A model generated the notes under the pieces. That model searched no databases. It was given only the letters and a program-made list of their open reading frames with translations, and was not told the origin of the DNA. From contig JASSKH010000006.1 of NCBI GenBank assembly GCA_031763025.1, positions 124,001 to 188,000 on the forward strand: DNA of 64,000 bases. Direction: 5' to 3'. Shown here one piece after another: positions 1-53,992 of this stretch. This DNA comes from Macrocystis pyrifera. Taxonomy: Eukaryota > Sar > Phaeophyceae > Laminariales > Laminariaceae. The position numbers were made by a program, and so were the translations under genes. The first letter of the stretch is position 1, and each line of letters begins with the position of its first letter.

Positions 1-191
1 GCAGTTCCTTCTCCTCTCGTCCCCCCACCGGCCCCCCCTTCCTTTCCTGCTCCCTGCACGTCCCTCTCGGCGCGCAGTCTCTGCCCCTCCATCGTCCTTT
101 CCAGGACCTCTATTTTCTTCTTCATCTCCTCTATGGTCTTTTCACTCTCCACGCTGGCTTCTTGACTGAGCATGTCCTCGAAACTAGGCAT
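1..191 (-). CDS. Copia Gag N-terminus, partial (cut by window start)
   Basis: The first 63 codons of a Ty1/Copia Gag lie here on the minus strand, with the start codon at 189-191. The sequence matches the start of the complete Gag at 53639 in the second copy. The peptide opens MPSFEDMLSQ and continues into a charged heptad-like stretch, EEMKKKIEVLERTMEGQRL, that probably forms a coiled coil. The rest of this element lies left of the window. Its leader and LTR follow at 192-544. Confidence 0.85.
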   Translation of the reverse strand, partial: MPSFEDMLSQEASVESEKTIEEMKKKIEVLERTMEGQRLRAERDVQGAGKEGGAGGGTRGEGT

Positions 192-266
192 GCCGAAGCA
201 GGTTCCTACCTCTCTAGGTTGGCCTTGGCTACGCTTGCCAATAGAAGATCGCCGGACTCACTAGTG

Positions 267-544
267 TGTTGATTGATCTCTAACGGTATAGGCGCAGCTG
301 GCACGGGAACGCGTGGTTGACTCCAGACAGTAACACGGAACTCCTCTTATATTATATCCGAGCTGTCGAGTGACAGCTCATGCATCGTATGCAGGTTATT
401 ATCCAACATGACGCGGGAATAAACCTCCCGTTTATCCCCCCGAATATCCGACTAAATATCCCTCTCCTATAATCCTATGTCAATATATGGAACTCCCTAA
501 TATTAGATGTAACGTCTCCGTCGTGTTTCTGAGCACAATCAATA
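267..544 (-). repeat. Copia LTR (5' LTR of the element running off the left edge)
   Basis: This 278-bp LTR reads TGTTGATTG...CAATCAATA on the plus strand and corresponds to 53715-53992. It lies upstream of the Gag start at 191, so it is the 5' LTR of a minus-strand element. CTACC at 545-549 is the same flanking target-site sequence as in copy B, so the Copia insertion predates, or is shared by, both copies of the 10.5-kb block. Confidence 0.85.
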
Positions 545-549
545 CTACC

Positions 550-1330
550 TTATGGGGTGTCTTACCTGCTCATTCCGCCCAGGGCTTCACCTGCACTTCG
601 GGTGGGGCTCGATACTTCCACACGGCTATTGGTCGGAGGTGGGTTCATGCATGTACCCTTTGCCGTGTACCACTCACGCGATCGTGGGGCTGTACATTAT
701 TCATGTGGTGCTGCCAACATGGAAAGTAAGATTGTGTTGACACATGGAATACATGGGTGATACCTTCCCGTCGCGACCATTATAAACTCACAACCACCGT
801 TTTGCACAGGGGAAACGATGTTTCTGCTCTATCAGTCACCGATCACAGCACGAAAAGCTACTCCCGATATCACATACCGGTCCGGTACCCTGGTGTGTGG
901 TATTGGGAGTGCAGATGTACGCATACTGCGCTGTATTTGACAAAACGAAGTTCTCGTAGGACCGGTAGCATGCGTAGCATAGATGGGCTTGACTCTGGCT
1001 CGAATGGTTCCCACATGGATTCATCGTGTGGCTTGTTCGAAGTTCCCTTCCTTAGCTAGCCCATGCAAAAAAGTCTGTTCCTGTGCGGTAGATAGTTTGA
1101 TGTTACGTTGCTCTGAACCACCACCTCATCGCAGACAAACCAAATGTCAGTTCTCTCGCCAAGATACAATCAATCATCTGTGTCCGAACGTTGATTATAA
1201 TACACCCCATAGTTGTGCGATTATGACATACCAGGTGTGATGTACTCTCATCAGCCGATACTCACTGTCGGTGGTACCACGGGTACAAGGACCGCTGCTG
1301 CAATGGTAACACACCCTGAAAAATAGCCTA
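550..1330. other. Non-coding stretch right of the Copia LTR
   Basis: I recognise no gene. Reading frames here (487-729, 757-1059, 983-1240) have no recognisable domain, and the 757-1059 frame is truncated in copy B. The first 190 bases may continue a reading frame from left of the Copia insertion; see the entry at 47048-47346. Confidence 0.5.
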
Positions 1331-1660
1331 TTCAATATGCCTATTGATCTGTCAATATGTTGAGGTATTGCGTATCGATGCCTATTGTCCCCTGCAATAG
1401 GGAGGTAAAAGTGTCTATCGATAACTACCCTCTTGATCAATCTGTACAGAGCAATATATACAAGAGACTGTTGTTCGTAGGATGGGTATATGGATTTGTC
1501 TATCGATACCTAAAGATTTGACATATAGGTTTAGAACAATAGGTACAATGAGCTATTATTCTAGGGATAGGTATGTGGAATCGTCTATCGATACCTACTG
1601 ATTTCTAATATGTTCAGAGAAGTATTGATCGATACCAGGTACCCATTTATTTGATCAATA
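1330..1660. repeat. Degenerate tandem repeat with TCTATCGATACCTA core
   Basis: The core TATCGATA(A/C)CTA recurs near 1413, 1499, 1583 and, degraded, near 1628. The spacing is roughly 85-100 bp, with similar flanking text (GGATGGGTATATGG or GGATAGGTATGTGG before the core). The array is present again at about 54777-55110. Confidence 0.6.
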
Positions 1661-3120
1661 AAATCAGATATTTTTGTGCAATGATCTGTTGTTCTCAGAA
1701 CTAGTGTGAGGTTTTTGTCGATAAGTTCGTTTTTTTTTTTCGGGCACACGTGTTACTCTACTACAAATAATTACTTCCACATTTAAACTTCATGCCTCTA
1801 CCAGGTATTTTCTAACAATATATTTCAATCCACGAAATGCAGCGTTCCATTCACTAAAAATACCATAAAACATGCCTATGGAGGGTGCCTCCGTTGGTGG
1901 TGTCGGTTTTGTCTTCGTCTTGGACGGGGTTAGCCGAGGCCTTGACGTGCACTTTTCATTCGTGATATGTGGCAAGGAGATGCCTCCACGAGCCTTTCTC
2001 GCGTCTCGCAGGGAGAGAACTTACAGAAATCGTGAGAGTGCGGGTCCTTCTCCGAAAAACCCTTTTCTCTCTGGCGCGTTCGGACTTCATGGCCCGAACG
2101 TCAACCTGTATGAAAATCCATCAGTGATGGCGGATCTCATAGACCGGACGTTGGTTTAAGTATCTTCATGGTTGGCGTTTGTGATCGGAGATTGACGGTA
2201 TTTTCGTACCCTGTACTCCACATACTATGGTATATGGGTATATAATACCTCAACTTGCCTCATGTGGCCCTCCTGCTCCCACGGCGGGAGGGCCGCTAAT
2301 TCCATCCATATTAATAGTATATATATATACATATATCCTGCGGGGCGTCTTACATTATGAGTGCCCGTCTATGAACCGACTCAAGCTCGACCCACCATAT
2401 CCCTGAGTGCTTCGGACAAAATGTCATTGCAAGTACTTGATGGACAACAAGCACATCTCCTAACACCAACATCCTGACCCCCTCGTGCGTCCAACAAGCT
2501 AGAACCAACCCCTCCCCCTTCCCAGCGATTTCCAGCTAAACATTGAACGAACCTACCTACTGTCCAAATGTATGGTCGGTTTGGAACTGCTGTGCGCGTA
2601 TTCCAAAGCGGAGAAGGCTTGGTGGTATTACTGCTCAACACGACTATCAGTCGTAACGAGGGACGTTTCAGTGCCGTCTCGCTGCCAGTAACTCTACGTT
2701 CATCAACTTTTCCCCTCAAATTATATTGCTGTTGCTGCTACCTTCCTTTCTCGATCCCCTATCGCGAGGGCCAAGTCCTTCCTCCGCGCTTTCGTAAAGA
2801 AGAAGCCAGTACGAAAACTCATAAACGGCTGGTTTTTTATCTGGCAGTAGTGGATGCTTTTGGCGCATATGGGTTCTTGCGATCCCTCCACGAGTTCTAC
2901 TGTATCCATTTGGCACATCGACGACCAATAGCAATGCGGGGGGTCAAGAGCTACTGCGTTGATGTGTTGCTCGATGCGTCTACTGAGCTATTTCACTACT
3001 GTGTAATCATATCGTTAGTATATTCATTGTACACTATGCGGCACATCCAGTGCCTCTTCGTCTGACGAAATAGTCGGAATACAACCGTTACACATTTTTT
3101 TTTAATAAATTTTAAAATAC
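1661..3120. other. Intergenic DNA without recognisable gene
   Basis: Frames exist at 1872-2159 (+, 95 codons), 2381-2719 (-) and 2568-3065 (+, 165 codons). None shows a known domain. The longest is split in copy B by the changes near 2803. It includes an AT-dinucleotide tract near 2318-2335 and a small GC-rich inverted motif near 2270-2295 that differs between the two copies. Confidence 0.5.
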
Positions 3121-3795
3121 AACCAAATCAACAACATTCAATCAATCTATAAATATTTGTGAAATGCAATGGTTTCAACATGTTGCAACATCATATCAAT
3201 ATCCCTTGTTCGGGTTATATAGTATCAGTGCGCAGAATAATTAGTTAAAATTGTCCTGTTGACCCGGGCAGCATCCAGGGGAGCCGCTGGCCTATATCTT
3301 TGACAAGGAATCACATATAGAATACGCGCGTTCGGTTTATCACAATAATTGTAAAATTAGGTAAAAATGGAAAATAGACGAGGCGTATTACGCAGCTTGC
3401 AAAGTTGAGTATCAACTATTTAATCAGTCGAACTCACAGCTGACGTATTTCAAAATTTATAAAAAAATACGTCAGCTGTGAGTTCGACTGATTAAATAGT
3501 TGATACTCAACTTTGCAAGCCGCGTAATACGCCTCGTCTATATTCCATTTTTACCGAATTTTACAAGTATTGTGATAAACCGAGCGCGCGTATTCTATAT
3601 GTGATTCCTTGTCAAAGATATAGGCCAGCGGCTCCCCTGGATGCTGCCCGGGTCAACAGGACAATTTTAAATAATAATTCTGCGCACTGATACTATATAA
3701 CCCGAACAAGGGATATTGATATGATGTTGCAACATGTTGAAACCTTTTCATTTCACAAATATTTATAGATTGATTGAGTGTTATTGATTTGGTTC
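3121..3795. repeat. Long fold-back palindrome (330-bp arms, 14-bp loop)
   Basis: Arm 3121-3450 is the reverse complement of 3465-3795 with about a dozen mismatches, roughly 96% identity. The axis is at 3457/3458 and the loop is only 14 bases. The arm tips next to the loop carry ACGTCAGCTGTGAGTTCGAC, the core of a repeat family found elsewhere in the window. There is no coding capacity. A hairpin or MITE-type element produced by inverted duplication is the simplest reading. I could not identify a target-site duplication. Copy B carries it at about 56563-57237. Confidence 0.9.
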
Positions 3796-3936
3796 TAAGT
3801 GTGAATAATTCTTCCGCAGATGAGCTGTTGCTTATATACGGGCCTGCTGTAGTCTTTGCCATTTCTTGATACGCATGAGCAGACCAGCAAATGTCACAAT
3901 TCAGAGCTTGGAGTGCATAATATCCCGGTATATATT

Positions 3937-4090
3937 TTTTTATAAATTTTGAAATACGTCAGCTGTGAGTTCGACTGATTAAATAGTTGATACTCCACTT
4001 TCCAAGCTGCGAGGGAAATACGTCAGCTGTGAGTTCGACTGATTTGATAGTTGATACTCAACTTTGCAAGCTGCGTAATACGCCTCCGGT
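3937..4090 (+). repeat. Two partial copies of the CAGCTGTGAG repeat
   Basis: TACGTCAGCTGTGAGTTCGA occurs at about 3956 and 4019, each followed by a GTTGATACTC(A/C)ACTTT..CAAGCTGCG segment identical to the inner arm of the palindrome just upstream. The second copy ends in the same CGTAATACGCCTC string as the palindrome arm. Confidence 0.8.
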
Positions 4091-6799
4091 ATATTTGTGA
4101 TATAGATATGGATACGATGTTGTCCCTCTGCTTTCAGCGCTTCTCAGCGCTTTTTTAAACGTTTTTTTAAGCAGCGGCACGCCCATGGTCTTACCTGGAG
4201 CCCCATAGTACAGACCAATCAGCGTTCATTTTTTTTTCATGACCAATAACAGCAATACAAAAAAAAAAAGCCTGTAGAGGGTGTTCCCATAGTACACCCC
4301 ATAGTACCGGAGGGATGTGACCAATCGAGAGCATAAGGGGATGTATGTGGCGGTGGAACCCATCATCCCGTCCGTCGTCCACGCTCTGTTTGCACCGCAT
4401 TTATTCCAAAAGTGGTCAACTCGAGAGGACGACCGTCTCAGCTGTAGTGCTGTAGCGCGGCCAGAGGGATGTAGGAACCGAATTGCCGGCTTGCAGCAGC
4501 ACAAAGGTACAGCAGGGCTGGGTAAGCTACTGGTGATCGAGTTGTTTTATCTTCCCAGGATGGGTAATCAGCTGAGATGACGATAGAGATGGCCCTTGGC
4601 GGTCGCAGTATGAGAGCCTGCTACGTACGGCAGGCAAGCGGAACTTGGTCGCCGGGCGGGAGACTGCTCCAATGTAGCGCCATCAGCTTGCCTCCAGGAC
4701 CGATACAACGGAGGAGACGTCTATGCACCTGGTGCCTGTTACTGTAGTGTCGGCTTGTTCTACAAGAAGAGTGGCGATGAATGCAGAGTATGTACGTCGA
4801 GCACTGCTACTGTAGACTTTTCCTCCGACCTACCAGGTACCAGGTACAGCAGTAGGTACCTGGTACTGCTGTACGGACTCTACCTCTTGGTGCGCTACTA
4901 CTTGGGCAGGATTGACCCCTATTGCCTGCACCCTACAAGCTTCGCCTATTTCTCTGTACTCGCACCTTCCCCCACAGCAGCAGCAGCAGTTGCGTGTTGT
5001 TGTAGCCATGCCTGGTACTGATGTACAGCTCGAATTTGTCACCCGGTACCGTTCTGAGCGGATAATATAGGTAGCGTGTACACATTAATATGGATACAAA
5101 AAATTCCTTATATTTCGCTCCAGAGTGGGATGTAGAGTTACAGCCCTGTTGTACTACAGCAGTAGCATTAATAGGCGTGAGAAGAACTGCCTGCGAGGCA
5201 CCTCTTGGCCTCATCGCTACACGCTCCCGGCGGTGCACCGGTTTAGACTTGCGCAGCAGTCCATCCAACACATATCGTAGTTATTGGGCACCACACTGGT
5301 TATATATGTACCTACAGCAGCAGCACTGACAGGAGCAGTGATCGGTACCATTTTCGCGCTGTGCGTTTTGGTATGATTAGTCGAACGATGAGTGGCGTTT
5401 GAAATCATGTTGAGAGCAATGCGGAGGGGGGGGGGGTGGTACTGGCAGTACTGCTGGCACTGACGATGTAACAACTTTTGCTCGTTTTGCTCTTGCCATT
5501 CGCGCCTCTCTTTCACTCTAGAAAGAGTGCAACACCAGGCGGTATGCTGACACCAGAGAAAACAACTACACTACGCGACAGAAGTTTATAGCTTCAGGCT
5601 CGAGTTTTTTACAAAGATAAGCATGTGGCATTATTTATACTGGAAGTTGAGTAGGACACACCCCGTCTCACATGAAAAAAAAATAGAGCCTGACCCGAAA
5701 TAAGAAAATTAGATATGCTAAAGTGGTGTCGCACACTTGCAGCATACACGTTGTGTTTGTCGTGCGATTGTCTTGCACGCAGCCGAAAGCGATGCCCTTG
5801 CAGCGGCGGCGACTGCGGAAAGAGAGCAGGAACAACAACACAGGCGTTGCCTGCTGAGGGAGTCAATTCGCTGACGGAAGACTACAAACCAACCAGTAGT
5901 AAGCAATAGTCGTGCATGAGAGTCGGCGCAAGGACAGGCCCGCCGGGTGAGGGTGGTGAGGGTTGTACGCTCAACCCCATGGCAAGACCCAAGTCCGGAA
6001 CCGCACGCCGTGGTGAAAACGTCAACTGCGGAGGTGCTCGTCTTGCCGGACAGGAAAGGACACTACACCTGCCCGGCGCGGCGAGTGAGCTACGAGCGAC
6101 GGAGATGAGGCAGAGGGAACTCGCCTCGCCGCCGGATTAACTTCCCGGGTGAAACACTGCACGGTGCCGTAGCTCTCAGCGCTGAACCCACACTAGTCGT
6201 CGCAGGTGTGGAGGTGGGGCGAGGGGGGGGGGGCAGGCCTGCACGATGGGTGAATCCCGAAGGGCGACGGAGAGCAAAGACCCATTGGTGTTAACGCGGA
6301 CGCCGGCGTTTTCCATGGAGAGGGTAGGGAGGAAATCTCGATTCAGGTGAGAAGCACTGGGACTAAGTAGTAGTCACCGGTACTTCGTTTCGTCGCCGTT
6401 TTTTTGCGCACATGTACCAAGCTTTGAGGGTAAATTAGCCGTTTGATTTTGCCCCAACCTCCACCTACTTGTTCGTGGTGATTGACGCTGCACACCACCT
6501 CTGTGAGCTATAAGCCTACCGTAGTGCCTTTTCGTGCAGTGCCAAAGCAGTAGGTAGGGTACGGCAGGTCGTGCCGTTTATGAATCAGCAGTACCGGCGG
6601 TATGGGTGTAGTTTTTGTTGTACTGAGTGCCGTGTTATATGTACCGTGACTCTTGTTTCCCCTGCCACCGCCGTCGGCCGGAGTGTGCATGCGCCTAGAG
6701 GTTTCCATGCGATTCAGTATCCTACTTTGCCACGGCGCCGGCAGTAGTGTGCATGTTTTAGGATTGGCGAAAAACTATTTTTCAAAATTCCGTGTAGAA
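4091..6799. other. Intergenic DNA; GC-rich patch 5740-6320
   Basis: I support no gene here. The stretch holds clustered TACCAGGTAC/GTACCTGGTA motifs (4840-4870), short CAG runs near 4976 and 5310, and homopolymer G tracts (5425, 6218) whose length may vary between copies. A short frame at 5916-6140 (74 codons) is conserved in copy B but is featureless and lies in GC-rich DNA. Confidence 0.5.
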
Positions 6800-7671
6800 G
6801 ACTTCGCGGAGGCGACCCTTTACCATAAACCTTAGCGGTAGTGAAACAGCCCTTCTGCCAGTAGGGCGGTCGCCAAGACGATGTATACATAACACTGGAA
6901 CGGGACGGGTGTCGCTATGTTCACACGTGCCGGAGGATAGCTGCACTGGTGCGAAACTGAAGGAGAACGATGTCGTCGCGGATATGGAAGCGGTAAAGAA
7001 CGTCGTTGTCCCCAGTTTGAGCAACAGAGCTGGCCACCTCGAGGCGTACTGTTAAAACAGCAGGTGAAACCCAGCCTGTTTTCGTGTTTTAAAGTTTCGG
7101 ATGCTCGAGTGAGGGCCTGTACAATTCCAGTAATTTTCTTGCGGCATTTGGGCTAAATGACACGTCCTCCCCACGTTCGACGTCTCACGGGAGGTAACGC
7201 AGGCATCACGGTCACATTAACACCAGGGAACCGCCAAGGGCTGTTTGCACAAAAGGTGCACCCATCAAGACCAACTGCCGCGCTTTCGTCGGTAGTGAAG
7301 GCCCCGCAAGTACCACTCGTGGCAAAGGCTTTGCTTGAATCGCTGATGACCTTCAGGTTGAGCAGATAGTATGCATAACATCAAACTGCCCCGAGATCAT
7401 GGGGGTGCAGAGGGTAGCTGTGCTGTCGTCAATGCCATCCAGATTTTCGGGGGTTTGCCGGGGGGTAAGAGATGGCAGTAGGAGCATAGAAAGACCATCA
7501 TGATCACTTTCGGCAGCAGCACCAAGGTGGAAGGTGTATCAAGTGCTGTGCACCTGACGAGCTTTATCGGGACTTTTAAGCATCCGAAGGAGACGAACAA
7601 AAATTGGAAATTCAGTGGGGAGTGCGAGTTTACACGCCCGAGACGAATTGTGTCAGGCGGGCTGCAATTCT
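6800..7671 (+). pseudogene. Degenerate protein-like reading frames, unidentified
   Basis: Two stretches read like former coding sequence but lack starts. The first, about 6800-7052, is open for 84 codons and ends with GAKLKENDVVADMEAVKNVV-type sequence before a TAA. The second, about 7379-7671, is open except for one TAG near 7470 and contains FGSSTKVEGVSSAVHLTSF and then NWKFSGECEFTRPRR. The composition is protein-like and neither stretch is a simple shadow of another frame. I do not recognise a family. Both stretches recur almost unchanged in copy B (for example near 60812-61104). Confidence 0.3.
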
Positions 7672-8776
7672 AGCCCACGATGATGGCGCACGTGGAGTGC
7701 GGGCCCGAATTATACTGTTCAGATTAAACCAAGTGGTGCACGATGCGTGCAGCATGTGCACTGTTTTTTTGTCTCAATATGCTTCAGGGATAGATTCTGC
7801 CACCGCTTGTAGGGCGACGTTTTTACTCCGTTGATGTTACGAGGATGGTTGTATTCTTGTGTTGGGCATACTGTTAATCAACGTATGGTTCACGTGTCTT
7901 GATTATTCCGCAAGAAATGTAGATGCTGTCCTTGCAAACTACATCCGACACTTACATGCGGTGCACAGCTTCTGAGAGCGGAATGCGTTTGAGATATATG
8001 CGAAGAACTTGTTGGGTTTATAAGTTTCGGGGGGCTGTAGGAGCAGTGAGCGACGAAGACTGTTTCTGCGTGTTGCCCCCAACGAGGACTCACGAGCGTA
8101 ATGGAAATACGTTGTGTTTGAGAACCTACTCGATTCAGGTACAAGAAAAGATACCATGCGCACACTTGTAAACCCGGTGATGACTTCCCATGGGCACGTT
8201 CTTCCATCTGCACGTACTTAATAATTATTGACTTCACCCGGCCAGATTAGCTGCTTACTCACGGTAAGTAAGTGCTCGCGGAATTATCATAGGCAAATTG
8301 AAGCGATCGCTGCAGAAAAACGTCGCTGGACCTATTGAAAACATCCAGAGGAAAGGCGAGAAGAAAAAGTGTATGTAATAGATGGAGAACATCAGGGTAA
8401 ACGTACCCAGCATCTGTGTTGTGGACCAGTGTAAACAGACCCAAAAGCTGTAGTACTCGTCTTGTCGGCCAGTACCACCAGTAGATAAATAGAGAAAGCG
8501 AGTTTGCCTGTTACATGCCGTAGGCCGTGTGCGTTCACAGAAAACGAAGTCAAACTACAAACGAAATAGTCCCGCCCCCAAAACATCACCAAGACCATAG
8601 CAGCACTCCGACAGTGACCAACTCGAGACAATTTGTCCAGCAAAACAAGTTCCACGCGTTAGCCTACGATCGTCCGCTTCTGTAGATGTCGAGTGTGTGG
8701 AAATCGGTCAGGTACAGCTCTCGCAATTTACCCTAGTGTAATCTAAAAGCAAAATTAATTTCCTATCCTAACGGAA
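7672..8776. other. Intergenic DNA without recognisable gene
   Basis: Overlapping frames occur on both strands (7890-8237 minus, 7923-8171 plus, 8392-8655 minus), but none has a recognisable motif. The plus frame around 8040-8170 could be further decay of the protein-like region upstream. Confidence 0.4.
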
Positions 8777-9080
8777 AAAATGCCAAAAAAAACGGTACAC
8801 CAGCGCTTTTTTGCCAGTTTTCGGTACGAAAACTCAAACCAGGCCATCAGGGTACACCAAACCCAAGTTAGATGGCATTTTGTGTCAAGGTATACCGTTT
8901 TTTGGCGAAACATCCATGTCCGTCCGTCTCACTTGCGAAAATGCCAAAAAACGGTACATCATTGTATTTTTGCCAGTTTACGGTACGAAATGTAAAACGA
9001 GGTGATCAGGGCACACCAAACCCAAGTCATATGACATTTCTGTCAAGGTATATCGTTTTCTGGCAAACAAACAATGTCCC
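8777..9080 (+). repeat. Two-unit tandem repeat, about 161 bp
   Basis: AAAATGCCAAAAAA begins units at about 8777 and 8938. Both contain TTTTTGCCAGTTT, CGGTACGAAA, ATCAGGG(T/C)ACACCAAACC and GTCAAGGTATA(C/T)CGTTTT in the same order. The homopolymers in this unit differ in length between the two 10.5-kb copies. Confidence 0.75.
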
Positions 9081-9693
9081 GGTACGGCTTATATTTTCGA
9101 ATCAATACTGCGTGCGTCAATAGAAGCGCCTTCTCGTACTCGTATTCCTACGAACATACCAGGTACGAGTCAAGCGTTGCTTATATAATCTGAAGCCATT
9201 TTATTTCGTTTCGTGCGCGTGCGTGTAGTCAGAACACGGTACCGCGGGCGAGCCCGGCGCCGCCGCGGGTGTCAGCGGGTGCTAGCAGGCAGAGGGGGTG
9301 TTGCAAGGAGCGCCTTCGCCGTTTGCATGGCTAGGCGTCGCGTGTGTCTCGAGACACGCAGGAAGCACAAATGGTATCTGTCTGGCCTCCTTGTGAGGCT
9401 CCGCTTGCACCATATACGAGATAGAAGGGTCGTTTTGATATGTGAAATAGTATTCAAGCGGTACTTATTTTTGCGACCAAACTAAACGTCAAAGAGACTT
9501 CAATGCAGTTTGAGCACCAACTTTGTCGAAGTGGCGAAGCAGGGCCACGGTGAGCACCAGGCTTGACGCGAGGCGGTCGACGACGCTCGCTCACTGTGGC
9601 AGAGATGGAGGAAAACTTTATCCGGACCCAATCGGTGATGAGGTGGTCGCGAGACGGGCGGGCGGCGTACAAGGCTGAGAGGGAAGCTCTGCT
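9081..9693. other. Intergenic DNA, GC-rich patch 9210-9330
   Basis: The frame at 9213-9485 (+, 90 codons) is arginine-rich and featureless, and it falls in a GC-rich patch. I see no support for a gene. The segment ends at the target-site duplication of the LTR element that follows. Confidence 0.4.
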
Positions 9694-9698
9694 GTTCG

Positions 9699-9964
9699 TG
9701 TTGATTGTACTCAGATACACGACATATAAGATCCATGGTAGATTGGGGAGTTCCACGCTGGAAAGGCATTCCGGCAGTAGGATATTGGGATATCGGGGTA
9801 ATGTGTGCCCACCAATGCCACTCGTCAGGTGCAACCCTACACTGCATGTAAGGCGAGTCAACTCTACAGCGAGGATGTAATATAAGAGGAGTTATTTTTT
9901 ATGTCTGGAGTCAGCCACGGGTTCCCGTGCCAGCTGCGCCTATACCTTTAGGGATCAATCAACA
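9699..9964 (+). repeat. 5' LTR of the non-autonomous element
   Basis: The LTR is 266 bp long with terminal inverted TGTTGATTG/CAATCAACA. Its 3' portion (TAATATAAGAGGAGTT, TGTCTGGAGT, CCGTGCCAGCTGCGCCTATA) matches the autonomous Copia LTR, while much of the middle has diverged beyond easy alignment. The element is therefore a related but distinct family. The same LTR lies at 63135-63400 in copy B. Confidence 0.9.
9876..9890 (+). promoter_or_regulatory. Putative LTR core promoter (TATA-like)
   Basis: TAATATAAGAGGAGTT lies about 180 bp into the LTR and is one of the few blocks conserved between this LTR and the otherwise diverged autonomous Copia LTR (minus-strand counterpart at 47422-47439 and 53790-53807). 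Position and conservation suggest the TATA element of the U3 region. The start site is not visible. Confidence 0.4.
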
Positions 9965-10047
9965 CACTAGTGGTAGTCGGGCGATCTTCTATTGGCAAGC
10001 GTAGCCAAGGCCAACCTAGAGAGGTGGGAACCTGCTTCCAGCATGTC

Positions 10048-11715
10048 TATTCTTTTTAGATGATGTGCTTCGTGAGGGAGCCGGCGTGTGTGAGTATTGT
10101 GAAGATGAGATCGAGGTCCTGGAGGAGAGGACGTGTGTGTGAGAAGAGTCAGGAGATGCCGCACCAGGAGAGCAGCAGCGATCCCAGCGGGGCCAAGTTT
10201 GAGCCGGACCTGGTAGAATCGCTTGGCACTGGTGGCGAAGGCGCTGGAGAGTAGTAGTTGCAGGGACAGCAGCAGCTCCAGCAGCACCGTCAGCACCGTC
10301 AGCAGTCAGAGGATTGTTGCACTTTTGTTGCGACGGTGAAGCGCATGCAGTAAGCACCGTTACCGTCGCCGTCGTCTCGACTGCCGCATAACCGTCGCTG
10401 ATGCAAAACCCCGGGATAGGCAGACATCTGCCTGAATCGGTGGGTTCGCTGCGCGCTGGCGACATAAATGTAGAACGTATATTATTATATGAAAGAGGGA
10501 GTTTGGCCGGCAGGAGCCGGGTGGGAAGGTGGAGACCGCAGGAGGGACTCTGAAAGCGTTTTGGCAGAATTTGCCTGGACTGCTGAAGCACCACGCCCGC
10601 AGGTGGTTGATGGAGGGGACGTTGCCCCGAGGAAGGAGTCGAGGGTGAAGATGGGCGCAGGGGGAGGAGTCTGCATCATCATCTGTTCGGGATGCGGTGC
10701 CCCAAGAGAGAGGAGGAAAGAAGGGATAGAGGCGCCACCGGCAAGGATTTACGTCCGCACCAGGCACGTTTGGCTTGCTTGGTTGATTGACTGCTGTGGT
10801 GACTACCGTTTTTAGAATCATTGTGTTTAAGAACGGTTGAGAATCTGCGAACATTGGAGATTCAGATTTATTTGGGAATACGAACTGGAAATTAAATGAG
10901 ATGCACAGACGTACACGTATACAGTATACGTATACGTGTACGTATAGCTTCCCTCACTGAAGTTTTTCTGTAGACGCACTGCTGTAGGACTATGACGTCT
11001 GTCTGTTTTATGGTTGACTGGTCGAGGGCTCTGGTTGAGCATCGACACGAGTACAGCAGGAAGAGGTGTATGTGATGAACCCTTGTGCCCAACTACAGCA
11101 ACACGTCTGTTTGCGGCATTTCACATATTTACATCTTTGTATGCGGGTATCTCGTTTTTGAGTTGTTGGGTTGGTGTGTAGCACGACCCGCGCCACTTGT
11201 TACGTGCTAAAGACAAGATATTTGCGGACGGAGTAATATACTATACGAGTACAGCAGCAGCAGAAGTAGTATGGTACTGTGAGCTGAGACGAAAACGGTT
11301 TACTTGGCTGCTGTATATGTTCATCAAGTATGTACTACAGATATAGAGTGGTCGAGGAATACATGGGTTTGATGTGGGACCAGATATTCTCGTTGACAAG
11401 TAGCTACCTATTTGCAGTAGCATTTGAAAAGTTAACTATACCAAAGAGGAGTTTGCAAGCAGTGCATACGCAGATCTAATCGCTCGAATGCACGCCCCAT
11501 CCCTTCTGTATGCCGGGTCAATGCTGCGGAGGCGACGTTTAATTTCACCCAGGAGGAATAGCTGGATGACCCGAGCTGCGGTGACACCATGAGACCGAAC
11601 GGAGAGGCAGCCGCGGCGGGGGCAACAGCAATAGTGTTCGGGGCATCGGGGTGATTCTTACTGAATGCGGTTGCCTGTGAATCTGGATGAATATTTTCAT
11701 TGCTTGTATTTTGGA
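10048..11715. other. Captured interior of the non-autonomous element
   Basis: This segment replaces gag-pol. Its left part (10050-10820) is GC-rich with open frames on both strands: plus 10060-10254 and 10489-10815, minus 10016-10594, 10360-10854 and 10485-10682. On the minus strand 11420-11660 also reads as protein-like sequence, for example PQLGSSSYSSWVKLNVASAA. The left junction lies just after the retained Gag ATG and includes TTCTTTTTAG, which resembles a splice acceptor. Candidates are an antisense host gene fragment or a decayed, unrelated body. I recognise no domain. Confidence 0.5.
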
Positions 11716-12717
11716 ATTGTTTTTTCTGGACGATTTGGATTCCGCGAGAGTTTTAGGTGTTTTCGAGTAGTCCCAACGTCAAATAAAATTCAAGTGAAGG
11801 AATGTATGCTATCTCGCATTACCGTCGCGATCTGTGTATCTATGGCGGGAGTAGGGGACAAGGGGAGACTCTTGTCCGGGGGAACGGGGTTCCTTGCGAT
11901 CTCTGGCATTTATTTTCTTGGCTTAATTTTTATTTTGATGAGTATGGCTACTATGATGTTTTTCCATGATTTTCATTAACTTCCTATAAATTTGAGGGAG
12001 GGGTTTTTGACGAGATTAAAGAGAGACTATGAAGCGCCTGGGGGCGTGTGCGGTCCATGTGAAATGTTTTCTGATTTGGAAGGTTTGGGTAGTATTTCGG
12101 AAATTGAGAGTTTGATTTTTTTGGTTGTTGAAAATTTGTGCTTTTGTTCAAAGTCAGTACTGACTAAGTGGTCTAGCAGGTAGTGCTATATAATTCCCTA
12201 GGGTGGGTCGGGAGTTGAAGTCTCGCCGAATTCGTGAGTTGATCTTTTCGAGCTTGCGCGCTGGAGACAATACGAATGATTATGATAGTGTGCCTGTAGA
12301 CACCAGTAGCGTTTGGCGAGGGGAGAGCCCCGGAGATCACTGTACGAAGTTGACGAGATCCCACTGTATATCTTTGGACCAATTCCGCGAAAAATGCCGT
12401 TTTACCTGACCGAATCCGAGAAGAATGCCGTTTTACCTGGCGTTGGATTTTGAGAGTTTTATGTGTTTGTAACAGAGAGGCTGGGGATTTGAGCATTTGA
12501 ATACTGATTTGAGGATTTGAGTGTTGATTCAAGAAATTGATTTTTGAGTTTCAGATTGGATTTTTGACTTTCAGAGTTTGATTCGAGTTGATATTTTTAT
12601 TGAGATATATCAGCCCTGCGATGTCACACATTTTCATGTACAGAGCTGAGGGGAATATTGATCATGCACAGGAGCAGGGGGGATATGAGTATGGTCGTGT
12701 ATATTGAGTAGGGGGGA

Positions 12718-12983
12718 TGTTGATTGTACTCAGATGCACGACATATAAGATCCATGGTAGATTGGGGAGTTCCACGCTGGAAAGAGATTCCGGCAGTAGG
12801 GTATTGGGATATCGGGGTAATGTGTGTCCACCAATGCCACTCGTCAGGTGCAACCCTACACTGCATGTGAGGCGAGTCAACTCTACAGCGAGGATGTAAT
12901 ATAAGAGGAGTTATGTTTCATGTCTGGAGTTAGCCACGCGTTCCCATGCCAGCTGCGCCTATACCTTTAGGGATCAATAAACA
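12718..12983 (+). repeat. 3' LTR of the non-autonomous element
   Basis: This 266-bp partner of 9699-9964 has about 12 substitutions and the same length. GGGGGGA at 12711-12717 immediately upstream is the polypurine tract. The flanking GTTCG at 12984-12988 repeats the five bases before the left LTR. The terminal bases AATAAACA show one change against CAATCAACA on the other LTR. Confidence 0.9.
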
Positions 12984-12988
12984 GTTCG

Positions 12989-13555
12989 TTTTTTTTCTTT
13001 TTGACCGGTGGAGCGGGCAAGCGGTAAACGCAACTCGTGAGTCACGTTTTAAAAAATCAACTAAGGGGACGATAAGTAACTATCCCCTTGTACCCGCGTC
13101 GTCCAACCCCATACAAACATCCAAACCGTTGGATACTCCGGTCAGCGAGTCAGGGGATCTTACGTACCGAACACATGCCAAGGCTGAGCCTGACACGGCC
13201 ACGAACCGCGGCTAAGCAAGATACGAAAGCAAAATCGCTCGCAGTAGCCTTTGTCCTTTTGTGGTCAGTCTAAAGCTCTAGATTCGAGCGGCTACCTCGG
13301 CACGAGCAGCGAGAAGCCTAACAATAACAACACAGCAGTCCAGGTTGAAGCATGCCTTCAAAAAAGAGGTGGGTGCAGATGTGCAGATGGTGTAGACTGC
13401 TGTAGACCGACCTACTGTTGTATCTATTGCTGTCGCTCGTGACTCTTGACCAGAGGGTTTGGCTGTTGATTCACAGCAGTTTTTTTCCTTGTGTCGAATG
13501 TGTCCCAGTTTTTTTCCTTGTGTCGAATGTGTCCCTGTTTGGTTGGTCGGATCTG
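12989..13555. other. Intergenic DNA
   Basis: There is no supported gene. It contains a direct duplication of TTTTTTTCCTTGTGTCGAAT at about 13480 and 13509. Confidence 0.4.
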
Positions 13556-31900: not shown

Positions 31901-32684
31901 GGCAAATTGTTTGTTGATTTTCGACAGAATAAAAATATTACCAGTTTACTGATAATCGACAGCACCAGTTGCAGGACTGGTATTAGCAGAGCATGTAGCA
32001 TACTACGTACCTGGTACCCTGGTAAGTGTTGACATCAACCAAACCTCGGCTGACATTTTTCTTCGCGTAATGTTTATAAGATTAAGGAAACTTATGTAAA
32101 GGGTTCGTAGACTCGTAAACCAGGTGTAATATATGATGTGCATATATGCATATACAAGGGGGCATATATGTGTGAATATGTGTTGTGTGCTGTGTGTGAA
32201 GGTGACCTAATTGACACTTTGCTTTCGTGAGGAGACGACGTACAACGACCCCCATACCATAAGAGTGCTCCTATGTCCTATGCTATGAATAATGGTACAT
32301 ACGATGCGAGGACTAGCGACGACACAGACAGATAGTCGCTGTCGTGTGAATTTCGTTCTGTGAACTGCTGTAGTAACTCTAAATTGCTGGTTAGCTGGCT
32401 ATCTTGCTCCACCCCTTGGCAGTGGGTGCCAGCGAAAACGCGTGACAAAAGCTGGTTGCCAGATTGGTTTCGGATAAAATCGTGCTCATTCATCGTGAAA
32501 TCGTGACACTTCCGTTTTGTGCTTTTGCAATGTATTTGCACGCTGACAGTAAGGCTATGCTGTTTTACCTGGATGTCAGGATAGTTATATGTAGGTGATC
32601 CTGGTTCAGGTGGCGTAGCTTCTTGGGGGGGTGTTGGGTGTGTGGGCGCTGCCAGCTTGGGGGCTGCCATGGTTAACTTGCCCC
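31901..32684. other. Intergenic DNA up to the gap
   Basis: I see nothing supportable. Short frames only (31807-32001 and 32278-32670, minus), and GTACCTGGTA motifs near 32009. Confidence 0.4.
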
Positions 32685-32784
32685 NNNNNNNNNNNNNNNN
32701 NNNNNNNNNNNNNNNNNNNNNNNNNNNNNNNNNNNNNNNNNNNNNNNNNNNNNNNNNNNNNNNNNNNNNNNNNNNNNNNNNNNN
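32685..32784. other. Assembly gap (100 N)
   Basis: Exactly 100 undetermined bases, the usual placeholder for a gap of unknown length. It is the only connection in the window between the left part, with copy A of the 10.5-kb repeat, and the right part, with copy B. Reading frames that cross it are meaningless. Confidence 0.99.
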
Positions 32785-33839
32785 GAGTAGTACCCACGAA
32801 CCAAGTCATGGTCAGGCACCTAAATGCTGAACCCCAACAGCCAGTGTCCCGCATATCGTTGAGATACCAGTGTGGGTTGTGTTTTGTTACTTCGTGTGAA
32901 TGTGCCCCACGCGAAATGATAGCATTTATTCGTGGTACTTTGCTATAGAGTTTGAGACGTACAAGTGGGAAGAAAGCCTTCAACTAGTAGTTATGCAAGG
33001 GTGTGCATATACCGAGAGTATACATGTGTGCGTTATTATTGGGTTATTTGACCACAGTAGTCGCGTACAGTGCTCATATACTTTTAAGTACGCATGTGTG
33101 TGGTTATTCAATCAAGTATATGAACGTTTTTTTAATCGTTTTAGGTGGAAGAGACACGGTGTTCTTTCCACCAGTCTCTTTGTGCAAGACACTAGGGATT
33201 CCTGGATACATGGATAATGTATTCTCTAGTGTCGGAATCGTTCCGTTGGATTTGACCGAGGAGAGGCAACCGTGCGCGTGAGTTGCACAATCCAAAGTCA
33301 TATGTCCTCTGGCACATTATGAGTCTCCGCTTGTTTTACTGCATTTTTGTGAGTGCTCTTTCTGCAGTCAATCGTCAATGACTGTCCGAATGTCTCCTGT
33401 ACATACCGTTAACTGTATAGATAGTTATGTACTATCAGCTCGTTATAAGTCGATTCCAGTATTATTCACTGAATCGCAAACATGTACTTGCTCGTGGAGT
33501 CGATGATGCCTTTTTCGACCGAGGAGACATGTCGTCGTCTTATTGTTCACGATGCACATGCAGTCCGTTATACTGCACCGTTATTGTCACAACCACATCG
33601 TTGTCAAGACATGCAGATTTTTATTTGTTATTATTTTTAATCGTTTAAAAAAAGTGGTTGATCAACCTAAACGCCCGTATCGTTTGTTGCGCACTCTGCA
33701 TGCAAATCCCTCTGACAAATTTATCATTCAGCACATTTAATTCTCTTTCAGTTTGTGTGTACTAAAGCTTGCAATCATTCCATATACACACTGTGTAACG
33801 TCGAGATAAGCTGGAATGTCGTCAAAGGCACATATCATT
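32785..33839. other. Intergenic DNA after the gap
   Basis: Frames at 32900-33217 and 33003-33281 overlap and show no recognisable domain. I support no gene. Confidence 0.4.
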
Positions 33840-41037: not shown

Positions 41038-43594
41038 CTACGACACCCGGCCTCCGTTGCGAGCAATGTTGGTTTCAGGGCGGTACTGTCGCTTGTCGTC
41101 CAGCACCATCTTGACCGCGATGCGGGTGGTGACGTCTCCCGACCTTGTCGGCTTTTTCAGGCCCTTGGTGGTCGAAAACCTGTCGGGCAGCGTCTCGTCG
41201 TCCGCCAGGTCGGGGCTGCCACGCCCGGACGCTGCGTCCTCCTCTGGCCGCAGGATCGGCTTGGCTTGCTCGTCCCGGAGGAAGTTGTGAAGGTGGAAGA
41301 GGGCGGTGATAAGGTCGGTGCGCCCAGCAAACTGAACCCGCAGCGGCCTCCACAGAATCCCCCACTGAGACACGAGGATGCCGAACGATTGCTCAATCTT
41401 GATTCTCAGTTGGCTGAGGTGGAAGTTGAACGAGTCCTGGTCTCGCGGCAGCTTCTTTCCTGGATACGGCGTGAGAAGCTGGTCGCTCAGTGGGTAAGCG
41501 GCGTCGCCGAGGACATAAAAGCCCGCCGGCAAGTAATCTACCACGCTCGAAAGGTCCGAACGATTCCACGCCGTCCAGTCGTTGGTTGCCCCGGGGGAAA
41601 TTGCCGACATGCTGCAGAACCGTTAGTTGGAATCACACGTGGCCTGGACGTTTAGTCCGTAGCCGCACTTGCTGCCCGGGTAGTACGAGAGTACGTTCGG
41701 GGTGTTCACAGCAGTCGGAGCGAGGGTCGTCACGAACAGGCCATCCGCGGCAGCCACACAGCCCTTGAAGACGCCACCAGTACTTTTCACCTAGGGATCG
41801 AAAATATAATATTAAGTGGACGGCAGAAGGAACATCATAAGAGAATTAAATAGGAAATCATATTATTGACGACGTCTAGTGTCAAAGGGGCGACGGCGCG
41901 GCGAGAAAACATCGCCTAGATTGGTCGTCCAAATACATCCCCGGCGCCCCACCCGCGAGGAAGGGTTCACCAGCATCGGAAACACGTGAATACAACACAA
42001 AAGCAACGGGGCACCCCCACCCCCCCCCCCCTCCCGGGGGGTGGTAACATACCGGGAGTGCGCATGGCTTCTGAATGTATTCACGCCATGGCCATATGAA
42101 CTCGTCTTTGGGACAACGTATCGCAACTCCGACGGGCAAGCACGGTGACCAAAAATCGTCTGGACTCTGGTTAGGCCAACATATTCCGGTGGCCCACTGC
42201 CGTAATAACACCCCGAGGGAACATCTGACGTAATAAAAACAGATCGGCAAGGTGAAGGAAGTTGTTGCTTGACAGCATACATCCCTGGAAACGAATATGC
42301 CCCCGGTCGAGATAGTCTGCAACCCGCATGCACATATACAACGAGCAGGGATGGCTCGGACGGGCATGAATCCCGCATCGCCGAGGGGAAACGGGATGCT
42401 CTTGCAAGCACCTACATTGAAAAAAATCATCTACAACAGAGAGAGAGGCACAGTAACTCCTGGAGAGAGACACACGCGCAGGGGTAGATATCTACCGCTA
42501 GCTACGTACAACCGACAGCCCCACAAGAACGGGCGCGTGCACACACACACGCACACACATGCGATCGATGCTGATATATGTACATCGTAAAAAAACGTTC
42601 CATACACACAACCACACACACACCTCCCACAGCTGAGCTTGCCGGGTGCACTCGTCCACGGTCTGCGGGAAGAAGAAACGCCCTACTTCCGGCGTGTTGT
42701 TGATAGCATCCACAACCTGCCACAAGATATCGTAGACCGTCTCCTTCGCGATGCCGAACACCACTGCCACATCGAGGTAGGAACCGCCGGCCAGCATCCG
42801 CAAGGGGACAGCTAAACGGATCTTCACCGGCACAGCCCCGCTACCCGCGCGCAGCCCTGAAATATGTTCAGCAGTTATCGGAACGGCGAATGTATAAGAT
42901 GGAGTGCAGTCATGCCAGTAGGCTCTACACAGCAGCAACAGCAGCAGCGGCGGCGGCGGCGGCGGCGGCGGCGGCTGCGGTCGGGGACTCCCGATGGTTA
43001 AACAAAACACATGTGTAAAACCATGTGTACCAACTTGTGAGCTGCTGAGACATGTGTAAAAACATGTGTACCAACCTGTGCGCTGCTTGAGACATGTGTT
43101 AAAACATGTGTACCAACTTGTGAGCTGCTGAGACATGTGTAAAATCATGTGTACCAACTTGTGAGCTGCTGAGACAAAGTCGACCAGTTAAAGCCAGATT
43201 CACAAGCACGACGGCTACCTCTCACGGATCTACACTCTATCTGTCGGCTCTTACTTGCGTAGAAGTCGTTCGGCTCAAGGACCGGCCGCAGCAGCTCGGC
43301 CAGCCTGTCGAACGTGCCTGGATCCATGCGATACATCCTCCGAAAGATGCCACGCCGCCGCAGGTCCGCCGTGTGTGCTTCCCACACCAACTTCCGCGGC
43401 TCGTGGTCAGGCTGTCGAACCCTCGGCCCGAATCCTGACATGACGGTGGCAACTACGCTCAGCACCAGCACCACAGCAGCTACTGTTCGCATGTTCTTCG
43501 CCACTTCTTGTCGCGTAGAGGGTCGGTAGCGCGGCCTCCGTGGAGGGGGAGACGTGCCACCGGAAGGAGCAGCACGCTTCCTGCGGTCAGCCAT
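41038..43594 (-). pseudogene. PIF/Harbinger-type DDE transposase (three exons, one stop)
   Basis: Exons are 43594-43255, 42856-42624 and 41790-41038. Exon 1 (MADRRKRAAPSGG..., then FRRMYRMDPGTFDRLAELLR) ends A|GTAAGA. Exon 2 follows TTTCAG, reads VKIRLAVPLRMLAGGSYLDV then VVFGIAKETVYDILWQVVDA (helix-turn-helix region) and ends GAG|GTGTGT. Exon 3 follows CCCTAG and holds the nuclease: GCVAAADGLFVTT (first Asp), YVLGDAAYPLSDQLL (second Asp) and LRIKIEQSFGILVSQWGILW (Glu). All joins keep frame, giving 442 codons, normal for this family. A TAA at 41623-41625 interrupts exon 3 between the first and second catalytic Asp. If real it inactivates the enzyme; a sequencing error is possible. A (GT/CA) microsatellite marks intron 2, and a 36-base CGG run marks intron 1. 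Confidence 0.75.
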
Positions 43595-47346: not shown

Positions 47347-47624
47347 TGTTGATTGATCTCTAAAGGTATAGGCGCAGCTGGCACGGGAACGCGTGGTTGA
47401 CTCCAGACAGTAACACGGAACTCCTCTTATATTATATCCGAGCTGTCGAGTGACAGCTCATGCATCGTATGCAGGTTATTATCCAACATGACGCGGGAAT
47501 AAACCTCCCGTTTATCCCCCCGAATATCCGACTAAATATCCCTCTCCTATAATCCTATGTCAATATATGAAACTCCTTAATATTAGATGTAACGTCTCCG
47601 TCGTGTTTCTGAGCAAAATCAATA
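47347..47624 (-). repeat. 3' LTR of the Copia element
   Basis: 278 bp, TGTTGATTG...CAAAATCAATA on the plus strand. The conserved TATA-like block is at 47422-47439 on the minus strand. The polypurine tract (minus-strand GGGGGGA, 47625-47631) abuts it, and a second GGGGGGATAT copy lies about 30 bp further inside. Confidence 0.92.
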
Positions 47625-47631
47625 TCCCCCC

Positions 47632-48226
47632 TGCTCATTATACACGACCATACTTTAATATCCCCCCAGCTCTGTACACTACAATGTACGACTCCGCTGG
47701 GTGGAAACATCTCAATATTATGACCAACTCATATACGAAATTCAGAAACAAAATTTCACTCCAGAACCAAAAATCAAACTCTCAATTTCCAAAATACTAT
47801 CCAAATTCTCCAACTCAGAAAACATTTTCTATGGACCGCACACGCCCCCAGGCGCTTCATAGTCTCTCTTCAACCTTATCCAAAAAACTCTCCCTCTATT
47901 TCATGAGGAATTAATGCAAATCATATAAAATATCACGGTAGTCATACTCATCAAAATAAAAATGAAGCCAAGAAAATAAATGCCAGAGATCGCAAGGAAC
48001 CCCGTTCCCCCGGACAAGGGTCTCCCCTTGTCCCCTACTTCCGCCATAGATACACAGATCGCGACGGTAATGCGAGATAACATGCATTCCTTCACTTGAA
48101 TTTTATTTGACGTGGGGACTACTCGAAAACATCAAAAACTCTCGAAATCGATCACCAGGAACGAAATGGTATCATCCTCGGAATTAGCCAGGGAAAAACG
48201 GCAGCATCTTCGGATTTATACGTAGT
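47632..48226 (-). other. Copia 3' untranslated region
   Basis: A non-coding tail between the RNase H end and the polypurine tract. Its segment 47901-48140 matches 11750-11990 of the non-autonomous element in reverse complement (for example ATCTCGCATTACCGTCGCGA), which ties the two elements together. Confidence 0.8.
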
Positions 48227-50038
48227 TCAGACAAATCCTTCACTCAAAAATAACATAAAACTTTCCGCCTCGGAAAAACCGCGCCAAACATTCTTCAGAA
48301 AATCCCGGTGGTAACGAAACACCGTGTTGTTGAGCGGCTTTGTCAAGAAGTCTGCATGCTGTTTCTCCCACTCTACATGGGTAATAACAAACTCCCCCTT
48401 AAAATAAGCTCGCGCAAAAAGTGGTGTCGTACGTCGATTTGCTTCGAATTCGACGTGCACACTGGATTTTGTGCCAGGTGCCTTGCCCGCTCGTTATCCT
48501 CGAAAACCGTAATGCATCTCTCCCCAAACCCCGGAAAAATAAAACTCCATACATAGCGCATGAACATTGCCTCCTTGATGGCGTCTGCCAGTGCTACATA
48601 TTCGGCCTCAGTGGTTGAGAGTGTGACGCATTTCTGCGTCCTAGAAAACCAGCACACACACACACGCCCCAGCACACATGATGGCCCCACCGGAAACTGA
48701 CCTCCTGTCAGTGGCTTTGTTGGCATAGTCTGCATTTGCAAACGCTACCAGCTCAAGCCCGCTACCCTTCTGGAACGTAATGCCGAGATCACTCGTAGAA
48801 AATACATACTCTAAAATACCGACTGCTGTCTTCCAGTGTACTTCCCTCGGCCTATTCGTGTACCTCGCTATCGCCCTCACCGCGTTTGCAATATCCGGTC
48901 GTCTTTGGTTCGCAAGCCACATCAAGCACCCCACCAACTCGCGGAAAGGCCGATCACCCACGGGTTCATTCTCGTCAAACTCCTCGAGCTTCACACCAGT
49001 CGAAAGCGGGTTATTCCTCCCAGAACTAACACCAAACCTCGCCGCGGTATTTTCAGCGAACGCCTGCTGCGAAATCGTCAAAGTACCAGCGTCCCAATCC
49101 CTCGAAAAACAACAACCAGCATACCACCGCAACTCGCCCAGATTGTTGATCGGAACAAGGTTGTTCAGGTCGTCACAGAACTGATCGCACCTAGTCTTGA
49201 GTCCTACAGCAAAAATATCATCCACATGAACTACCGTTACAATGGAGACAGAGCCCGACTCGACCAACCTCATGACACACGTGTCAGCGGGGCTCTGCTC
49301 AAATCCTAGACTCTTCATGCGAGTGAGAAGGTGGTTGTGCCACGACCTCGACGCTTGCTTCAAGCCGTAGAGACTGCGATTCAACCTGACCACCTTACCA
49401 GACATTTCGCCGCAGCCGGGAGGTAGTCGCATGAATACATCCTCATCCAAACTCGACTGCACGAACGCCTGCTCAGCATCAAAATGACACAAATCCAAAC
49501 CCAACTCGCACGCAATAGCACCCAACAAACGAAACCAAAACCCTGCAGGCGTCGGAGCAAAAGTCTCAAAGAAATCAATACCCTCACGCTGCTTGAAACC
49601 TCGTGCCACCAGCCTTGCTTTCGCCCGCACCACGTCACCATGCTCGTTGGACTTCCAGGCGAACACCCACTTCGCCGAGATGACGTTGAGCCCCTCTGGT
49701 TGCTACGTCGCTCCAAACGTCCCCGCGTCCGCCAGCCCATGGTACTCCTTGTCCATCGCCTGTCTCCAGATGGCCGAATACTCGTCCGCACACGCTTCAA
49801 CATACGAGTTCGGCGTCGAAAGCTCGCTCGCCGGGCGTGTGGGAAGGGGAGGGTTCTCGCGCGGTGGGGCTTGGTGGAAAAGTACATGGCCTATACCTTC
49901 CCGCGCTGCCATCAACGACAGCAGCCCATGCCCCATAGCCTCGCGGTTCCGCGCAGTCTCCCCTCTTGTCCGCCCCCTCAGCACATCTCCACCTTCCGGG
50001 TGTCGCCCAGCTTCCCCCCTGGCCCGATCACCCTGCAC
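48227..50038 (-). pseudogene. Copia reverse transcriptase and RNase H, disrupted
   Basis: The RT begins with EYSAIWRQAMDKEYHGLADA and continues VFAWKSNEHGDVVRAKARLV, FFETFAPTPAGF, SLYGLKQASRSWHNHL and the catalytic VVHVDDIFAV. The usual Copia box is YVDD; here the first residue is His. RNase H shows AFANADYANKATDRRSVSGG, LSTTEAEYVALADAIKEAMF and, in the last frame, KQHADFLTKPL. Breaks: a TAG at 49703-49705 just before VISAKWVFAWK; a frame change at the CA repeat near 48655; another near the A-run at 48416. The proline-rich linker 49940-50160 changes frame among short tandem repeats. Whether all breaks are biological is uncertain, because homopolymer errors are evident elsewhere. Confidence 0.85.
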
Positions 50039-50450
50039 ACCGCCACCACCCTCCTGGTGTCGTGCGGTCTCCCCCTAGTCCGCCCTCTCTGCCCAGCGCC
50101 ACCGCTCTCCTGGTGTCGTGCAGTCTCCCCCCTTGTCTGCCCCCTCAGCACATCGCCATCCTCCGGGTCCGGGATATAATAACCCAGTGCCCGGGCAGCA
50201 CTCTGCGAAAGCTGTGGCTGCGGTGACTGCTGCGGCGGCGACGGCGATGATATCGGCGGCGACGGCGGCGGCGGTGACGGTGGCTGTAGCGGCGGCGGTG
50301 ACGATGACAGCGGCAGCGACGGCGACGGTGACGGCGATGGCGGTGGCGACGGCGACGGCGGCGGTGGCGGCGGTAGCGGCGTTGATGACGGCGGTTGCGG
50401 CGGCAGCAGTGGAGATGGGGACGGTGGCTCGGGCCATACGTCGGGGTCCC

Positions 50451-53639: not shown

Positions 53640-53714
53640 GCCGAAGCAGGTTCCTACCTCTCTAGGTTGGCCTTGGCTACGCTTGCCAATAGAAGATCGC
53701 CGGACTCACTAGTG

Positions 53715-53992
53715 TGTTGATTGATCTCTAACGGTATAGGCGCAGCTGGCACGGGAACGCGTGGTTGACTCCAGACAGTAACACGGAACTCCTCTTATAT
53801 TATATCCGAGCTGTCGAGTGACAGCTCATGCATCGTATGCAGGTTATTATCCAACATGACGCGGGAATAAACCTCCCGTTTATCCCCCCGAATATCCGAC
53901 TAAATATCCCTCTCCTATAATCCTATGTCAATATATGGAACTCCCTAATATTAGATGTAACGTCTCCGTCGTGTTTCTGAGCACAATCAATA
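53715..53992 (-). repeat. 5' LTR of the Copia element
   Basis: 278 bp, identical in extent to 267-544. It is followed by target duplication CTACC (53993-53997). The minus-strand TATA-like block is at 53790-53807. Confidence 0.92.

Follow-up and report, generated by a model that had tools for sequence, protein, structure and literature searches.

The question raised by positions 9699-12983 of this 64,000-nucleotide stretch of the Macrocystis pyrifera genome (hereafter the window; C220:124001-188000) is what an element represents that has the ends of a Ty1/copia retrotransposon and holds about 1.7 kb of other DNA in the place of gag-pol. It could be a single gutted copy, a decayed coding element, the carrier of a captured host gene, or a member of a non-autonomous family. 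The analysis favors the last of these with high confidence, namely an old copy of an amplified non-autonomous family derived from Ty1/copia, for which mobilization in trans and template switching can be proposed.

In outline, 9699-12983 is a complete LTR element, with paired LTRs, target duplications, leader, 3' UTR and polypurine tract. The features of the window that bear on its origin are the following.

9694-9698, no strand: left target-site duplication GTTCG, adjoining the 5' LTR; a paralogous empty site is found in locus L034
9699-9964, plus strand: 5' LTR, 266 bp, 95.5% identical to the 3' LTR
9965-10046, plus strand: primer-binding region, followed by the leader as far as the Gag ATG position, from alignments to Copia and of 38 loci
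10016-10675, minus strand: longest stop-free frame on the antisense strand (219 aa), not regarded as a gene
about 10047-11734, plus strand: non-coding interior specific to the non-autonomous family, recurrent genome-wide and with no sign of coding constraint
11735-12145, plus strand: 3' UTR segment common to the window's Copia and gag-pol members
about 12146-12579, plus strand: additional 3' segment belonging to this LTR family, found in most fetched copies but missing from the window's Copia
12580-12717, plus strand: 3' end of the internal region, with the polypurine tract AGGGGGGA (12710-12717)
12718-12983, plus strand: 3' LTR, 266 bp, aligned to the 5' LTR
12984-12988, no strand: right target-site duplication GTTCG, adjoining the 3' LTR
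47347-53992, minus strand: related Copia of a different LTR subfamily, its LTRs with 4 differences in 278 and its target duplication CTACC
63135-64000, plus strand: 5' part of the same insertion in a second block copy, 5' LTR identical

The two LTRs carry TG...CA ends (TGTTGA...AACA) and align without gaps, with 12 substitutions between them (8 transitions, 4 transversions); they are bounded by the 5-bp target duplication, and the polypurine tract AGGGGGGA directly adjoins the 3' LTR. In alignment to 47347-53992, the Gag ATG position of Copia is found in the leader at 10043-10045, and the 3' UTR matches that of Copia at 94% over 11745-11962 and at 88% over 12004-12120 (90.2% for the joined segment 11745-12120). 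The LTRs, GTTCG duplications, leader to the Gag ATG, 3' UTR and polypurine tract described in an initial annotation of this DNA were thus all confirmed. The interior at about 10047-11734 matches nothing else in the window significantly once the element's second copy is masked; the two hits obtained are of 26 nt (E 0.09) and 18 nt (E 0.32). A short strong palindrome at 10901-10945 within the interior gave weak sub-threshold matches to microRNA models on both strands, which are taken as chance. Behind the 5' LTR, a conserved region holds a hypervariable spot at 9973-9976 and at the same place in 38 other loci: after CACTAGTG come a few hypervariable bases and next, in most cases, ATACCGGTGATC or AGTCCGGCGATC; 22 distinct strings are present at this spot among 39 copies, duplicates counted, and the variation may reflect how the primer RNA gets copied. 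ARAGORN found no tRNA genes in the window, and the window gave nothing against Rfam at gathering scores. Searches of phage records, of IMG/VR with the reverse transcriptase and the leader pattern, and of prokaryote genomes with the leader pattern returned nothing.

The surroundings of the element are themselves repeated. Window positions 1-10564 are a second copy of 53449-64000 at 99.67%, with a 53.4-kb period and 21 difference events, of which 5 are mismatches and most others are indels in or beside homopolymer runs; the 5' part of the element is accordingly found again at 63135-64000. The initial annotation had overlooked both this repetition and the extra 3' stretch at about 12146-12579. 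The same insertion is also present on other scaffolds (C191, C204, and C223), each time within 9-37 kb of the scaffold end, and again on C220, at about 1 Mb from its far end, which suggests that the repeated block is partly a subtelomere-like duplication, or else an assembly effect. Five further loci (L009, L010, L011, L045, and L046) share the GTTCG duplication, and their 300-bp flanks are 96.7-100% identical to those of the window insertion, so that they represent duplications of one insertion and not new transpositions. At L034, both flanks are matched (93.7% and 95.0%) around a single GTTCG with no element between them; this site is a paralogous empty target. Three other observations concern this DNA: an inverted repeat at 3118-3797 with 333-bp arms (96%) and a 14-bp spacer, hairpin-like and also present in the second block copy; a transposase-like frame at 41038-41622 on the minus strand (DDE_Tnp_4, E 7.1e-17), of a family that suggests a Harbinger-like DNA transposon; and an assembly N run at about 32680-32785, apparently a scaffold gap.

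The initial annotation had proposed a non-autonomous family, to be checked by asking whether the interior recurs in the genome. Within the assembly (537,376,219 bp, 223 contigs), a query of LTR plus leader gave 40 scored matches of 1930 loose candidates; with the interior as query, 49 matches came from the 40 scored among 771 candidates. These candidate numbers are not copy numbers. The interior does recur: among those 40 scored of 771 candidates, 28 matches are near full length (at least 93% of the query), 7 of them being the window insertion and its duplicates (98-100%) and the other 21 lying elsewhere at 90-94%. Thirty-eight of the 40 LTR-plus-leader matches were fetched with their flanks, the other two being the window's own two copies; the sample is biased, as all 38 loci were picked by LTR-plus-leader similarity to the window copy. 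At least 100 bp of the interior is present in 35 of these 38 loci, and the remaining three (L025, L026, and L033) hold gag-pol sequence instead. Exact 5-bp target duplications border 24 of the 29 fetched loci with both LTRs; among the other five there is one mismatch in four (L021, L025, L030, and L043) and no duplication in L020. With duplicates set aside (L029 repeats L028), there are, besides GTTCG, 18 exact target duplications. The fetched copies with both LTRs have total lengths of 2,320-4,569 bp, the longest being L016. The distance between LTRs ranges from 0 (L012) to 0.035 (L031 and L039) in the other insertions and is largest, at 0.047, in the window copy. Because the interior recurs in dispersed copies that have their own target duplications, what the window holds is a comparatively old member of a non-autonomous LTR family that has been amplified, and not a single gutted copy; the element has no gag-pol coding capacity, and the same non-coding interior lies in many independent insertions. 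The proposal of such a family is therefore borne out, and the interior, being part of many copies, is not a nested later insertion, which had been named as a possible refutation.

To speak of one interior is nevertheless too simple, since four copies (L012, L016, L017, and L024) carry another interior segment, a second lineage with up to 2.3 kb of other DNA whose aligned pieces are 91.7-99.7% alike. Among 13 other copies, diversity is 0.024-0.098 per 100-bp step, with no clearly conserved block in the interior. L030 is a non-autonomous copy lying within an inverted Copia body, with Copia parts on both flanks. The 3' stretch at 12146-12579, which looked tRNA-like by eye, was considered as a nested SINE; there is no Rfam tRNA match in 9600-13100 at E up to 10, and this or any later insertion is rejected because the stretch is found in most fetched copies and in a gag-pol member, the same-LTR element on C196.

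One alternative is that the interior is what is left of the coding sequence of the same Copia or of a related one, a reading that the Copia-derived ends of the element, together with the true gag-pol pieces held by some copies, might seem to invite. However, in tblastn the Copia frames match the interior at an E of 2.0 at best, compared with an E of 0 for a gag-pol copy, and Pfam names no retroelement domain in any of the 24 interior-overlapping frames of at least 50 aa. The interior is moreover 90-94% alike between copies. By these comparisons the decayed gag-pol that had been listed as a refuter is not detectable, the reading appears refuted at this sensitivity, and the probability left to it is close to nil.

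A second alternative is that the element took up a host gene in antisense orientation and is spreading it, as the initial annotation had suggested from protein-like frames on the minus strand in the place of gag-pol. The longest frame is indeed on that strand (10016-10675, 219 aa), its core is largely open in many copies, and it has a weak Pfam match to VCPO_N (22.3 bits, E 1.3e-4) that is lost in one shuffle and one reversal of the frame; VCPO_N also appears in seven of eight relatives (8 of 10 relative peptides were taken) at 14-24 bits, with nothing in one, the best relative at 23.6 being slightly above the window frame. However, the match is below the 29.3-bit cut-off in the window frame, also when split, and in all eight relatives, and being below cut-off throughout, it is not counted as evidence of a gene. 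In Markov sequences of the same composition (1000 runs per order), the 210-aa interior part of the frame was matched in length by 2.3% (order 1), 16.8% (order 2), and 16.6% (order 3), and 84-88% of the simulated longest frames lay on the minus strand. Long antisense frames are thus a by-product of base composition, the sense strand being G-rich; the longest one does lie on the strand named in the earlier description, but composition accounts for it.

Substitutions within the frame point the same way. Variable columns are spread over the codon positions as 73/78/76 in 22 copies (28 of 39 sequences had the full segment, and 6 duplicates were dropped), and single-change codons of the core comprise 25 synonymous, 70 non-synonymous and 6 stop changes against a neutral expectation of 378:948:42. 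In 20 of 21 other copies there is a frame-shifting indel relative to the window frame, most of them near the frame ends. A genome search for VCPO_N found none at E 0.001, which says little as control genomes were silent too; the antisense frame has no PDB match at E up to 10, the other 23 of the 24 interior-overlapping frames of at least 50 aa match no Pfam family at E up to 1, and NCBIfam gave no match for 7 frames. With frames driven by composition, neutral-looking substitutions weighed above the VCPO_N signs, and a sole domain match below cut-off, a captured host gene is not supported by these comparisons and appears very improbable. It is possible that the interior comes from non-coding host DNA, the donor search having covered 40 scored of 771 candidates.

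If a non-autonomous family is accepted, its proteins would have to be supplied by a relative, and the Copia at 47347-53992 had been put forward as a plausible source. This element has Pol_BBD and rve in 50451-53705, upstream of RVT_2 in 48641-49702, and thus the Ty1/copia order of integrase before reverse transcriptase; the element at 9699-12983 is itself without pol. An RNase H, presumed from its motif, lies in another frame and was not named by Pfam. The relationship stands, but the Copia is a weak helper candidate, since its LTR is 71.5% alike to that of the element in global alignment (85-88% over the last ~108 bases) and its frames are interrupted as assembled, with a stop codon at 49703-49705 preceding the reverse transcriptase frame. 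The better candidate is the element on C196 (L026 together with L047), whose LTRs both belong to the family seen here and which carries gag-pol sequence (94.3-95.5%) and the extra 3' stretch; TAAAC is present on both sides by eye, and its 3' LTR ends in TCAAAA, not TCAACA.

The two kinds of element have also been joined. Chimeras of interior and gag-pol are present in 7 of the 38 fetched loci (L022, L033, L037, L039, L042, L027, and L038), the last two being visible in a finer locus map and not in the coarser one. Alignments overlap by 2-37 nt at the junctions, an upper bound on microhomology. Exact target duplications flank all four chimeras with both LTRs in view (L027, L037, L038, and L039), which suggests that joining preceded integration; a single LTR was found in the fetched stretch of L022, L033, and L042, and these were left out of the target-duplication count. 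L027 and L038 have one junction in common at two different sites, so that this chimera has probably moved again. L012 holds a 56-bp gag start within its alternative interior. In an alignment of the 38 loci with the window copy and its Copia relative at 47347-53992, leaders fall into two main types and mixtures of these; in the window copy and its duplicates, a gag-pol-type leader of about 62 nt is followed by non-autonomous sequence around the ATG. The 3' UTRs (full segment in 33 of 41 sequences) form groups that do not follow the interior, copies with one interior falling into different groups. Measured from the gag-pol-derived L025, one group stands at 2.4-6.9% and a second at 11.6-13.1%; the window copy is among the intermediates, at 8-10%.

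That interior and gag-pol are joined in 7 of the 38 loci suggests co-packaging and template switching. Alternatively, ectopic recombination or gene conversion could have produced the mosaics once the copies were integrated, an explanation that competes with the last step of the proposed history and with no other. The family looks abundant (1930 loose candidates for LTR plus leader), segmental duplications are present and one copy (L030) sits inside a Copia body, all of which speak for this explanation. However, crossing-over between integrated copies would mismatch the flanks of chimeras that in L027, L037, L038, and L039 have exact target duplications, and the L027/L038 junction recurs at two sites; conversion tracts would leave flanks matched. 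An origin after integration is accordingly considered unlikely, though by no means far-fetched.

Template switching before integration thus remains the preferred reading, and a history can be proposed from the structure, the target duplications, the empty site, the recurrence of the interior, the same-LTR gag-pol relative and the chimeric copies, all of them directly observed. The element keeps the cis parts (LTRs, primer-binding region, leader, 3' UTR, and polypurine tract) of a Ty1/copia element in which about 1.7 kb of non-coding DNA has taken the place of gag-pol. In the proposed history, gag-pol relatives would supply the particles that take up its RNA, and reverse transcription and integration would then proceed in trans, a mobilization suggested by the shared ends and the chimeras. 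Where both RNAs enter one particle, template switching may exchange leaders, interiors and 3' UTRs between them. Probably the window copy is itself a product of such a switch, with the start of a gag-pol-type leader on a non-autonomous interior, and would later have been multiplied through segmental duplication of its surroundings. The further proposition that parasite and gag-pol helper form one recombining pool, in which leaders, 3' UTRs and gag segments are traded and chimeras transpose, is given about even chances on these sequence comparisons.

The best-described helper-dependent LTR families are those of flowering plants, and the internal region of the present element (9965-12717; 2,753 bp) is above the classical TRIM size. 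In the published definition, LARDs have an internal region of more than 4 kb and TRIMs in broad use one of less than 4 kb, so that the element is TRIM-like in broad use and not a LARD, and at most the longest fetched copy, L016, just passes the LARD limit (PMC9033089). TRIMs and LARDs have been reported from a brown alga genome, and the kelp family resembles them in having LTRs, a primer-binding region and a polypurine tract around non-coding internal DNA, a likeness of layout (PMC3145265). Dasheng and RIRE2 of rice pair a defective LTR element with a putative complete partner, and the kelp family is similar in that a defective element has ends in common with a complete relative; RIRE2, however, is Gypsy-type and from a grass, whereas the kelp family is Copia-type, from a brown alga, and includes chimeras between the two kinds (PMC9033089). 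LTR retrotransposon chimeras of the Triticeae are large complex daughter elements ascribed to template switching; a fusion of two parents is there too attributed to switching in reverse transcription before insertion, but in kelp it is segments of gag-pol and of the interior that change places within a single LTR frame (PMC1950507). Finally, non-autonomous endogenous pararetroviruses of grasses have homogenized non-coding regulatory sequences, and in both cases partners would share regulatory ends and homogenize them by recombination; unlike those, the kelp elements are LTR retrotransposons, and it is the leader and 3' UTR types of a limited sample that point to exchange (PMC5491270).

The kind of element is thus already known, a TRIM/LARD-like, probably helper-dependent LTR family of which the kelp family is a further member. 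Such elements seem little described in brown algae: the literature search found the review mention of TRIMs and LARDs (PMC3145265), and no kelp report of such a family appeared in that full-text search, with its incomplete coverage, or in the accessible part of the kelp genome paper (PMC10498591). The antisense frames also caution against assuming that a long antisense frame in a strand-biased element must be a captured gene. Young copies exist, the LTRs of L012 being without substitutions, and together with the same-LTR gag-pol relative and the readable chimeras they form a natural record of recombination between parasite and helper. If the two do belong to one recombining pool, exchange would keep the packaging and priming signals of the parasite matched to those of its current helper.
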